Part shown: positions 17,152 to 19,681 of the stretch, in pieces
How the letters are laid out: each line of letters begins with the position of its first letter
How positions within the stretch are numbered: the stretch's first letter is position 1
NCBI RefSeq assembly: GCF_021129305.1
Contig: NZ_JAJOMB010000031.1
Span: forward strand, 1-64,000
Direction of reading: 5' to 3'
From: Kineosporia babensis
Lineage (GTDB): Bacteria > Actinomycetota > Actinomycetes > Actinomycetales > Kineosporiaceae
DNA: 64,000 bases
Notes under the pieces: model-generated
Seen by the model: only the letters and a program-made list of their open reading frames with translations
The model's database searches: none
What the model was told of the DNA's origin: nothing
Translations under genes and position numbers: made by a program

Positions 17152-17906
17152 TGGCTGCGCCGAACGAGTTGGAGGCGCGCGCCTGGAGCGCTCTGGACGC
17201 GGTGATGGACCCGGAACTCGACGAGCCGATCACCGATCTGGGGTTCGTCCGCTCGCTCAGCGCTTCGGATCAGGGCGATCTTCTGGTGCACCTGCGCCTG
17301 CCCACTTCCTTCTGCTCACCGAACTTCGCGTACTTGATGGCGAGCGATACGAAGGACGTCCTCGGCGGGCTTGCCGGAGTCGGCTCGGTGGTGGTGGAAC
17401 TGGACGATCACCACGACTCGGATCTGATCAACGCCGGCCTGGCGGCAGATGCGGGATACCAGGGGACGTTCGGGCCCGAGGCGGAGGAAAGCCTGGACGA
17501 GTTGCGGCTCACCTTCCGCAAGAAGGCGCACACCGCAGCCATGGAACGTGCCCTGACCGCCGCGCTGAAAGCCAGCCCTGGCCTGGAACTGAACGCGACG
17601 CTGGCCGACCTTCCGGCCTCACCGGCCACCGAGGCCCTCAAGCGCCGCCGCCACGACCTGGGCCTGTCCCTGCAGCCGGACGCACCGGTCCTGGTCAACG
17701 AGGACGGCACCCCAGTTCCCCGTGAGCAGGCCGAGTTCCGGCTGCGCCGGGCCCGCTCCACCCGCATCTCGATCGACGGCAACGCGCACTTCTGCCGCGG
17801 CCTGCTACGCACCCGTTACCCCGGATCCGACGCCGACCAGAACCCGTGCGCGCACGGCGACACCGACGGCCGTCCGCTCCTCAGCTTGGAGGTCAAAGCA
17901 TCATGA
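17151..17906 (+). CDS. DUF59 (MIP18-type) iron-sulfur assembly-like protein
   Basis: 251 residues. The N-terminal 100 residues are a DUF59 domain (AWSALDAVMDPELDEPITDLG, LLVHLRLPTSFCSPNFAYLM) with one Cys in the usual position. The remaining 150 residues are a less familiar extension containing charged helices, the segment TRISIDGNAHFCRGLLRTRY and a terminal NPCAHGDTDG. The same two-part protein follows the amidohydrolase in propane-monooxygenase clusters, where it probably helps metal-site maturation. Coupled by overlaps to both neighbours. Confidence 0.82.
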   Translation: MAAPNELEARAWSALDAVMDPELDEPITDLGFVRSLSASDQGDLLVHLRLPTSFCSPNFAYLMASDTKDVLGGLAGVGSVVVELDDHHDSDLINAGLAADAGYQGTFGPEAEESLDELRLTFRKKAHTAAMERALTAALKASPGLELNATLADLPASPATEALKRRRHDLGLSLQPDAPVLVNEDGTPVPREQAEFRLRRARSTRISIDGNAHFCRGLLRTRYPGSDADQNPCAHGDTDGRPLLSLEVKAS

Positions 17907-18928
17907 GAGCAGTCCAGGTCACCGGCTACCACCAGCCCCTGGCGATGACCGAACTGGCCCAGCCGGAGGTCACCGGCCCGTTCGACGTGATCGTGAAGAT
18001 CGGCGGCGCCGGGGTGTGCCGCACCGACCTGCACATCCTCGAGGGTCAGTGGGCCGAGAAGTCCGGCGTGGCGCTGCCTTACACGATCGGGCACGAGAAC
18101 GCCGGCTGGGTGGCCGCGGTCGGCAGCGCCGTGACCAGCGTGGCCGAGGGCGACCCGGTGATCATTCACCCGCTGATCACCTGTGGCCTGTGCCGGGCCT
18201 GCCGCTTCGGCGACGACGTGCACTGCGAGAACTCCCAGTTCCCGGGCATCGACACCAACGGCGGCTACGCCGAGTACCTGAAAACCTCGGCCCGCAGTGT
18301 GGTCCGGATCGACCCGTCGCTGCAGCCTTCCGACGTCGCCGCCCTGGCCGACGCCGGCCTGACCGCCTATCACGCCGCCGCCAAGGCCGCCCGCCGCCTG
18401 CGCGCCGGTGACCGCTGCGTCGTGATCGGCGCCGGCGGCCTGGGCCACATCGGCATCCAGGTGCTCAAGGCGATCAGCCCGGCCGAGCTCATCGTGGTCG
18501 ACCGCAACCCGGACGCCACCAAACTGGCCCTGAGCATCGGCGCCGACCACGGCGTCACCGCCGACGGCACCCAGGTCGAGCAGATCCTGGAGCTGACCGA
18601 CGGCAAGGGCGCCGAGGTGGTCCTCGACTTCGTCGGCGAAGGCGGCTCCACCCGTGAGGGCCTGAGCATGCTGCGCCGGGCCGGCGACTACCACGTGGTC
18701 GGCTACGGCGAGAACGTCGACGTGCCCACCATCGACATCATCTCGGCCGAGATCAACATCGTCGGCAACCTGGTCGGCTCCTACAACGACCTGGTCGAGC
18801 TGATGGCCCTGGCCGCCCAGCAGAAGGTCACCCTGCACACCAGCAAGTACCCCCTCGACCGCTTCCAGGACGCCATCGACGACCTGGACGCCGGCCGGGT
18901 CCGGGGTCGGGCGATCCTCGTCCCCTGA
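17903..18928 (+). CDS. Zinc-dependent NAD(P) alcohol dehydrogenase (MDR family)
   Basis: 341 residues, ATG in an ATGA overlap with the DUF59 gene and preceded by TTGGAGG. Catalytic zinc ligands are in GVCRTDLHILEG (Cys) and TIGHENAGWVAAVGS (His-Glu). The structural zinc loop is ITCGLCRACRFGDDVHC. The Rossmann motif is VVIGAGGLGHIGIQVLKA. In the related alkane clusters this enzyme oxidises the secondary or primary alcohol made by the monooxygenase. Without that oxygenase the substrate here is uncertain, for example a xenobiotic or plant-derived alcohol. Last gene before a strong terminator. Confidence 0.9.
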   Translation: MRAVQVTGYHQPLAMTELAQPEVTGPFDVIVKIGGAGVCRTDLHILEGQWAEKSGVALPYTIGHENAGWVAAVGSAVTSVAEGDPVIIHPLITCGLCRACRFGDDVHCENSQFPGIDTNGGYAEYLKTSARSVVRIDPSLQPSDVAALADAGLTAYHAAAKAARRLRAGDRCVVIGAGGLGHIGIQVLKAISPAELIVVDRNPDATKLALSIGADHGVTADGTQVEQILELTDGKGAEVVLDFVGEGGSTREGLSMLRRAGDYHVVGYGENVDVPTIDIISAEINIVGNLVGSYNDLVELMALAAQQKVTLHTSKYPLDRFQDAIDDLDAGRVRGRAILVP

Positions 18929-18939
18929 CCGGCGCACGG

Positions 18940-18972
18940 CGAGAAGGCCCCACCTGTGGTGGGGCCTTCTCG
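18940..18972. terminator. Strong bidirectional hairpin terminator
   Basis: A perfect 15-base stem (CGAGAAGGCCCCACC, 18940-18954) with a 3-base loop TGT and its exact complement at 18958-18972. It starts 12 bases after the alcohol dehydrogenase stop and 11 bases beyond the stop of the convergent lysine-rich microprotein gene. It lacks a U-tract on the plus strand but can serve both transcripts. Confidence 0.85.
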
Positions 18973-18982
18973 TACGCGGCGG

Positions 18983-19048
18983 CTACTTCTTCTTCTTGCC
19001 CGACTTCTTGTTCTTGCCGGACTTCTTCTTGTCCTTCTTCTTCGCCAT
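18983..19048 (-). CDS. 21-residue lysine-rich microprotein
   Basis: A tiny gene encoding 21 residues, 13 of them lysine, beginning MAKKKDKKKSGK and ending in four lysines. It is coding in appearance: GGAGG sits 6 nt before the ATG, every sense codon ends in G or C, a TAG stop follows, and a strong terminator lies 11 bases after the stop. The KKK-D-KKK / SGKNKK / SGKKKK layout suggests two SGK-type repeats. It would be extremely basic and unstructured, so RNA, ribosome, nucleoid or acidic-membrane binding is plausible. It lies downstream of kptA (102 bases apart, same strand). I know no named family; function unknown. Confidence 0.65.
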   Translation of the reverse strand: MAKKKDKKKSGKNKKSGKKKK

Positions 19049-19150
19049 GGCTGTCCTCCATGATCGTCACGGTTGATTCAGAGCCCATCGGCGCCGAACG
19101 CCCCCGACTTGAGAACAAGCGCAGCCTGACTGGAGCGCATCGACGCGTGA

Positions 19151-19681
19151 CTAGCGCTGTGCCAGGGTGGACAGCAGTGCTGGAGGTACGTGGTCGGTGA
19201 GCCAGACGCCGTTGGCCGCGCGGTAGAAGGGGTGACCGCCCTGGTGGGCGGCTGCGGCATCTACTTGAAGGACGACGGGGTCGCCTCGGCGGGCACCGAC
19301 GGTTCGGGCGGTAGTCACGTCGGCGGACAGATGAACGAAGCGGCGGCCCATCGGCAGGAGCCCTTGGGTGGTGATACCGAGCCGGGCGCCTGGGTGCGTG
19401 CCGTGGTAGAGGACGGCGGGTGGGGCCAAGGGCTCGAGGCCTAGGTCGACGTCCAGGGAGTGGCCCTGGGCAGCACGAATCCGGTTGTCCCGCAGTTCAA
19501 AACGTTGCTTGTCCGAGGTGGCGACCAACTGTTCCAGGTCCTCACGGTTACCGACGCGACCGTGCCGGCCAAGAGCGTCTACAAGCTCGGTGACGTCCAC
19601 CCAGCCACCGGCGTCCAGGTGCAGACCGATCGCTTCCGGGTGATGCCGCAGAAGGTAGCTGAGGTAACGGCTTTCGATCAC
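19151..19681 (-). CDS. kptA: RNA 2'-phosphotransferase (Tpt1/KptA)
   Basis: 176 residues, GTG start in a GTGA overlap with the LysR gene. Family motifs: SRYLSYLLRHHPEAIGLHLD with the conserved Arg-His, then DKQRFEL, LYHGTHPG, FVHLSADVTTARTVG, PVVLQVDA and FYRAANGVWLTDHVPP. The enzyme moves an internal RNA 2'-phosphate to NAD+, giving ADP-ribose 1,2-cyclic phosphate and nicotinamide. It serves tRNA splicing in yeast, while bacterial substrates are unknown (RNA repair or ADP-ribosyl capping have been proposed). Translational coupling to a LysR regulator is unusual. The full frame is longer but upstream residues belong to the LysR gene. Confidence 0.9.
   Translation of the reverse strand: MIESRYLSYLLRHHPEAIGLHLDAGGWVDVTELVDALGRHGRVGNREDLEQLVATSDKQRFELRDNRIRAAQGHSLDVDLGLEPLAPPAVLYHGTHPGARLGITTQGLLPMGRRFVHLSADVTTARTVGARRGDPVVLQVDAAAAHQGGHPFYRAANGVWLTDHVPPALLSTLAQR

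Follow-up and report, generated by a model that had tools for sequence, protein, structure and literature searches.

The window analysed here, a stretch of 64,000 nt, comes from contig C25 in the 9.4-Mb genome (G000) of Kineosporia babensis. It contains a very short gene, hereafter the microgene, which is read on the minus strand from 19048 to 18983 and encodes MAKKKDKKKSGKNKKSGKKKK in 21 codons followed by TAG. The features at the locus are the following:

18983..19048, minus strand: microprotein gene (MAKKKDKKKSGKNKKSGKKKK), ATG to TAG, from frame reading, conservation and a check of in-frame starts
19055..19059, minus strand: Shine-Dalgarno motif GGAGG, with the start codon 6 nt on, read from the sequence
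19086..19113, minus strand: sigma-28 (FliA/WhiG)-type promoter match CTCAAG-N15-GCCGATG, with 0 mismatches to the flhA/cheA motif
18940..18972, no strand assigned: 15-bp perfect inverted repeat with a 3-nt loop, a probable terminator without a T run, between convergent genes
19151..19681, minus strand: kptA (PF01885), context only, outside the unit
17903..18928, plus strand: convergent gene, zinc alcohol-dehydrogenase-like by reading (putative family), context only

The encoded microprotein has 13 Lys among its 21 residues and a net charge of +12. Its Lys fraction of 0.62 is the highest of the 672 short frames (12-60 aa) in the window, the next reaching 0.14. Upstream of the ATG, the next in-frame stop is met after 6 codons, with no start codon between. 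A preliminary description had proposed, without naming a strand, a 21-residue, 13-Lys frame with ATG and stop, an optimal ribosome site and only G/C-ending codons. The frame is indeed present, on the minus strand; GGAGG lies 6 nt ahead of the ATG and every sense codon has G or C at its third position. The strong terminator placed behind the gene was borne out in part: the perfect inverted repeat is there and the 60 nt after the stop are predicted to fold with -42.7 kcal/mol (z -5.7 relative to mononucleotide shuffles), but a consensus terminator scan of the window, in which a T run was required, reported none. Two convergent genes flank the repeat, which may act for both of them. The position downstream of kptA was also correctly described: kptA (E 1.7e-43 to PF01885) is on the same strand and ends 102 nt before the microgene, with the promoter match located between the two.

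Conservation was assessed by a DNA search of 98 genomes (own included) in which the matches were translated. Loss of the frame while the nucleotides drift had been named in the preliminary description as the sign that would speak against the gene; instead, the frame is kept in five of the six Kineosporia genomes (own included), with one copy found in each, and none was found in G003. The relatives encode MAKKKGSKDKKGKNKKSGKKKK (G001), MAKKKDSKDKKGENKKSGKKKK (G004), MAKKKDTKGKKKDAKAKKGKKGKKKSGKKK (G005) and VAKKKDTKGKKKDTKAKKGKKGKKKSGKKK (G002), and K. rhizophila JCM 9960 and K. mesophila JCM 16902 have the same microgenes as G001 and G002. In family f15, the microgene occurred in 2 of 12 genomes among the matches listed by a pattern search, namely as VAKKKDKKKKDKNKKGKKK in G073 (Kineococcus xinjiangensis) and MAKKKDKKKDKKGKKNKKK in G086. 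For one genome, G117, two pattern matches were among those listed. The Kineosporia frames are 21, 22, 22, 30 and 30 codons long. Pairwise nucleotide identity is 67-95% within the frame, 47-66% in the 120 nt upstream (90% for one close pair) and 43-70% in the 80 nt downstream, and one Ser codon is kept across the copies as TCC, AGC or TCG. A start codon and a Shine-Dalgarno motif are present in all copies only for the lysine frame. The two alternative frames were rejected as coding candidates: although open, neither has a start shared by the copies, and in G002 a stop codon interrupts frame +2 within the gene. A stable fold follows the stop in 7/7 copies (z -2.0 to -5.7, mononucleotide shuffles), and its sequence varies between copies. 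Therefore, the microgene is very probably a real gene, and we consider it highly likely that its product is a translated microprotein. The short start is the sole in-frame start in G000, G004 and G073. A longer product is possible in G001, G005, G002 and G086, because the lysine frame is open upstream in these genomes with other in-frame starts, over 47, 79, 110 and 417 codons, respectively.

In G003, no Lys-rich frame was found behind 15 scanned sites of its 18 promoter-like sites, the other three of which precede cheA, flhA and fliC, and a looser microgene pattern, which also misses G002 and G005, gave no match. G003 is flagellated though the microgene was not found there. Likewise, flagellin was present in 7 other genomes of the family, with no microgene among the matches listed by the DNA and pattern searches.

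Upstream of 5/5 Kineosporia copies lies the motif CTCAAG-N15-(G/A/C)CCGATG, with 0, 0, 1, 1 and 1 mismatches to CTCAAG-N14-16-GCCGATG, and its end is 37-40 nt from the microgene start (37 nt in the window); because of shared ancestry, these are not five independent events. Neither of the two f15 copies has such a promoter (best 4-5 mismatches), and in G086 one flagellin-type frame, unlike the microgene of that genome, has an exact promoter match. The motif was then sought in the flagellar clusters of the six Kineosporia genomes, covering 400 kb (100 kb of G000 and 60 kb of each of the others), in which 16 sites with at most one mismatch were found. Fifteen of these lie 16-114 nt before the start of fliC, flhA or cheA; that is, a site precedes fliC in three of the six genomes and both flhA and cheA in all six. 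In G000 and G003 such a site also stands before PilT, and G003 has one before a chemoreceptor too. The G000 families were assigned by Pfam (FlhA, PF00771; CheA domains; PilT, T2SSE; flagellin, PF00669), and FlhA and CheA of the other genomes were named by shared N-terminal sequence. Over 137 kb holding the five microgenes, both strands together gave 7 sites, i.e. the five microgene sites and 2 others. Genome-wide in the six genomes, a looser motif (TCAAG-N14-16-VCCGATG) had 116 matches vs 62 for the reversed pattern, so that about half of its isolated matches may be due to chance, and the promoter argument is accordingly drawn from position and recurrence.

Two good candidates for a FliA/WhiG-type sigma factor are encoded in G000, next to weaker matches; both have sigma-70 regions 2-4. 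The candidate on C5 scored 283 bits, over the curated cut-off of 189.6, and the candidate on C1, 0.3 kb before fliC, scored 173 bits, below that cut-off. Given that the same type of promoter stands before fliC, flhA, cheA and pilT, the microgene probably belongs to the flagellar/zoospore regulon; from these motif positions, we regard its membership in a sigma-28 regulon as likely. It would be at most a regulon accessory in the genus and not part of the flagellar core, as the f15 copies are without the promoter and the searches found no microgene in G003 and other flagellated relatives. In the literature searched, no polylysine member of a sigma-28 regulon was found.

The sixteenth site of the flagellar clusters has no clear frame. 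At L075 (G000:C1:677845-677873), a perfect match to the sigma-28-type promoter is followed by no clear protein frame; a GC-rich inverted repeat follows some 80-90 nt past the promoter, and the locus is possibly a flagellar-stage small RNA. Elsewhere in G000, proteins are encoded directly behind sigma-28-type sites at L078 (C21:7532), L203 (C45:205967) and L198 (C78:91627). None of the three had a Pfam match at E 0.01, and relatives of the L203 and L198 proteins recur behind sigma-28-type sites in congeners.

Kineosporia forms fast-swimming zoospores, as described in the part of PMC2587704 consulted. The reading we favour, with a probability of roughly 0.6, is that of a sigma-28-driven microgene whose product is made at the zoospore stage and is a disordered polycation that binds a polyanion. 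The frame with its conservation, and the promoter match with the company it keeps, are what the genome sequences offer for this reading. The locus would form a stand-alone unit with a transcript of ~135 nt, composed of a sigma-28 promoter, a short leader with the Shine-Dalgarno motif, the 21-codon frame and a hairpin end. In vivo, a sigma factor of the sigma-28 (FliA/WhiG) family would control it and the frame would be translated during zoospore formation, together with flagellin and with parts of flagellar export, chemotaxis and the type IV pilus. The product (+12) would be disordered and could bind a polyanion in the zoospore, with rRNA or the ribosome, nucleoid DNA and polyphosphate as candidates. 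Judged from composition, we put action by polyanion binding in zoospores at about even odds.

Composition was compared over 19 distinct microproteins, with a Planctomycetota sequence left out. After the first two residues, 72% of positions are K, followed by D, G, S, A and N, and T, V and E are rare. HU-type DNA-binding proteins and polyphosphate kinase 2 (PPK2) have tails with lysine-rich runs of similar make-up, so DNA and polyphosphate are as plausible as RNA. At three loci (L014, L015 and L017), PPK2-type proteins with lysine-rich tails or N-termini of microprotein-like composition were seen; PPK2 was assigned by Pfam for L015 and L017, and for L014 by its likeness to L017. No match to the microprotein was obtained from Pfam, NCBIfam or PDB (E up to 10, 1 and 10, respectively), which is a weak test for a short, low-complexity query, and no description of such polylysine peptides was found in the literature searched. 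The product would be an almost pure lysine sequence, shorter than gene callers usually accept, and its promoter would link it to the stage of swimming spores, a brief part of the actinomycete life cycle about which little is known. A gene of 66 nt that can be deleted, and whose time of expression can be predicted, also gives experiments something concrete to start from.

Among the other readings, the one that survives best, though we think it rather unlikely, is a sigma-28-dependent small RNA in which the GA-rich body would base-pair, with or without a second function for the peptide. The locus is a short unit with a promoter and a hairpin end, and sigma-28-dependent small RNAs are described for flagella biosynthesis in an excerpt of PMC10578931. 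This reading has to face the restriction of the residues after the first two to K, D, G, S, A, N, T, V and E in the 19 microproteins, and the retention of start and Shine-Dalgarno motif while the hairpin sequences differ. Moreover, there was no Rfam match near the cut-off (best 16.6 bits vs 40).

A constitutive small structural ribosomal protein of the bS22/bL37 kind is less probable still. The microprotein is short and very basic, and presumably resembles bL37. Like a bS22-type protein, it shows a MAKKK-like, AAG-rich run; however, the bS22-type sequence contains Arg, His and Leu, and the KKKHRKLLRKTRHQRRNKK-type frame at C2:212196, which we take to be bS22, is a separate gene in G000. As the KKKHRKLLRKTRHQRRNKK-type gene stands apart in the same genome, the microgene was ruled out as bS22. 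Small proteins of this sort are reported on mycobacterial ribosomes in the consulted parts of PMC5876184 and PMC6133939. A structural role of this kind fits poorly with the flagellar-type promoter and with the patchy occurrence of the microgene, which was not found in G003 or in other genera of the Kineosporia family; there was also no PDB sequence match (a weak test).

A run of Lys codons followed by a hairpin is reminiscent of a leader peptide (attenuator), which would sense lysine charging or slow translation and control the next gene. Three congeners (G001, G002 and G005) have their next called gene on the strand of the microgene, about 100-210 nt beyond its stop codon. The next called downstream gene of the window and of G004, however, runs on the opposite strand, and different genes lie downstream in the window, in G001, in G004 and in the pair G002/G005. 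A leader peptide is therefore very unlikely.

The frame might also be nothing more than an (AAG)n stretch of low complexity that happens to be open, which we consider equally improbable. GA-rich repeats do stay open in several frames, and frames +1 and +2 are open across the G000 gene. Against this, a frame with at least 10 Lys and at least 45% Lys appeared in 0/30 order-3 Markov copies of the window, the frame is conserved with its signals, and 16 of the 24 stretches with the exact pattern of the first nine codons in genome_contigs (84,980 species) were such microgenes. Finally, a partnership with the RNA 2'-phosphotransferase gene kptA, which had been the preliminary description's hint at RNA and for which the adjoining, same-strand position in the window speaks, can be dismissed as barely credible, since tblastn with KptA (E up to 1) gave no match within the 16-19 kb around the microgene in any of six other genomes and the microgene has an intervening promoter match of its own. 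A tblastn search with the dehydrogenase (E 1e-5) likewise found nothing near the microgene in six other genomes.

Polylysine microgenes of a similar kind, with 10-36 aa, also occur in other Actinomycetes. Besides the 16 microgenes, the exact-pattern stretches comprised 6 long proteins and two short frames, L085 (an HU-like tail) and L098, which were dropped because each is the in-frame end of a longer frame. Two microgenes came from Kineosporia, one from Kineococcus and 13 from other sources: Pseudonocardia (5), Amnibacterium (3), and one each from Cellulomonas, Tessaracoccus, a Micrococcales MAG, an Actinomycetota MAG and a Planctomycetota MAG. The last (L089), outside the Actinomycetes, is a 21-codon lysine-rich frame, MAKKKGKKKASKKAGKKKAAK, with AGGAG ahead of it. 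A pattern search across the class (394 genomes) gave 4 matches, i.e. a microgene in G488, two bS22 variants and a 10-codon frame in G616. These pattern counts are lower bounds, because a microgene in G526 was missed by the pattern and found through its neighbour, as follows. In viral contigs, there were no matches to the pattern.

At 7 of the 13 other loci, a divergent gene for a 72-96-aa helix-turn-helix (HTH) protein lies about 75-120 nt away. When the 394 class genomes were searched with an alignment of these proteins, the top matches were in G488 (E 2.5e-21) and G526 (E 1.3e-17), which have the divergent microgenes MAKKKNDKKGKKGKKKK and MAKKKKDKKGKKKKK, respectively; the other 28 HTH loci scanned had no microgene. 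This makes 15 loci outside Kineosporia and Kineococcus (13 from the exact pattern, plus G488 and G526), 9 of which have a divergent RelI/ClpC2-like HTH gene. The motif GTCAA-N7-TTGAC occurs at 12 of the 15 loci in 22 copies (two Pseudonocardia loci being near-identical), all of them within 140 nt upstream of the microgene in stretches of 2-8 kb each. By its letters, this motif is the ClpC2 operator, given as CGTCAAC-n5-GTTGACG in the consulted part of PMC10030653. HTH-microgene pairs with operators in the spacer are L086, L087, L091, L096, L100, L103, L107, L109/L139 and L110/L214. Operators without an HTH gene beside them are present at L088, L106 and L094, and neither is seen at L089, L090 and L108, the sequence of L108 beginning 79 nt upstream. 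No description of a regulator-microprotein pair combining an HTH gene with a polylysine microgene was found.

Double operators are present in 81 of 296 genomes of the class, and both G488 and G526 belong to these 81. Among 20 double-operator loci inspected, a ClpC2-type HTH frame was located no more than 271 nt away at 18, and a Lys-rich frame was seen at none, so most double operators are unrelated to microgenes; none of 57 viral stretches has a Lys-rich frame behind a double operator. In the window and at the four congener loci, no GTCAA-N7-TTGAC and no frame with the HTH motif was found, so that an antitoxin-type partner with this motif was seen at none of the Kineosporia loci. One relaxed operator match, at position 77 of the window, is far from the microgene and has another form, and the double operator of G000 is on C14, beside a ClpC2-like gene.

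Taken more widely, the genomes of Actinomycetes may encode a class of polylysine microproteins with 10-36 aa and a Lys share of about 70%, a bacterial counterpart to counter-ions of the protamine type, under lineage-specific stage or stress switches. We put this forward tentatively, as a possibility that is less likely than not. The switches would be sigma-28 in Kineosporia zoospores, and RelI/ClpC2-like repressors with ClpC2-type operators in Pseudonocardia, Amnibacterium, Cellulomonas and Tessaracoccus. If so, such peptides would form a reversible coat on RNA, DNA or polyphosphate while the cell rests or disperses. Dedicated operators and repressors in front of such genes outside Kineosporia suggest that the cell has to keep the peptide in check. 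Common descent of the microgenes cannot be proven, because their sequence is so simple.

Several known systems can be set beside these genes. The short HTH proteins match RelI (PDB 9sdc, E 6.4e-11) and the N-terminal part of ClpC2 (8ada, E 4.8e-4). RelI is described, in the part of PMC13284704 consulted, as an antitoxin of an HTH family that is partly similar to ClpC2 and occurs almost exclusively in Actinomycetes, its short members lying mostly beside RelS; in the short HTH proteins found here, by contrast, the divergent neighbour is a polylysine microgene and not RelS. The Kineosporia microgene shares with the microgenes of other Actinomycetes the M/V-A-K-K-K start, a length of 10-36 residues and Lys-richness up to the stop, whereas the ClpC2-type operators and divergent HTH gene seen elsewhere are both missing at the Kineosporia loci. 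Its promoter form and its company of fliC, flhA, cheA and pilT resemble the actinomycete FliA/WhiG regulon. In Actinoplanes zoospores, flagella and type IV pili are both under such sigma factors, according to an excerpt of PMC8325347. The flagellar consensus given in the same source has TAAA at -35 and GCCGATAA at -10, in contrast to CTCAAG and GCCGATG in Kineosporia. Lastly, the tails of actinobacterial HU-type and PPK2 proteins have the same K/G/D/S composition as the microprotein, e.g. ...KKDKKGKKGKKK, but there the run is a tail on a folded domain, whereas the microprotein consists of such a run as the whole protein.
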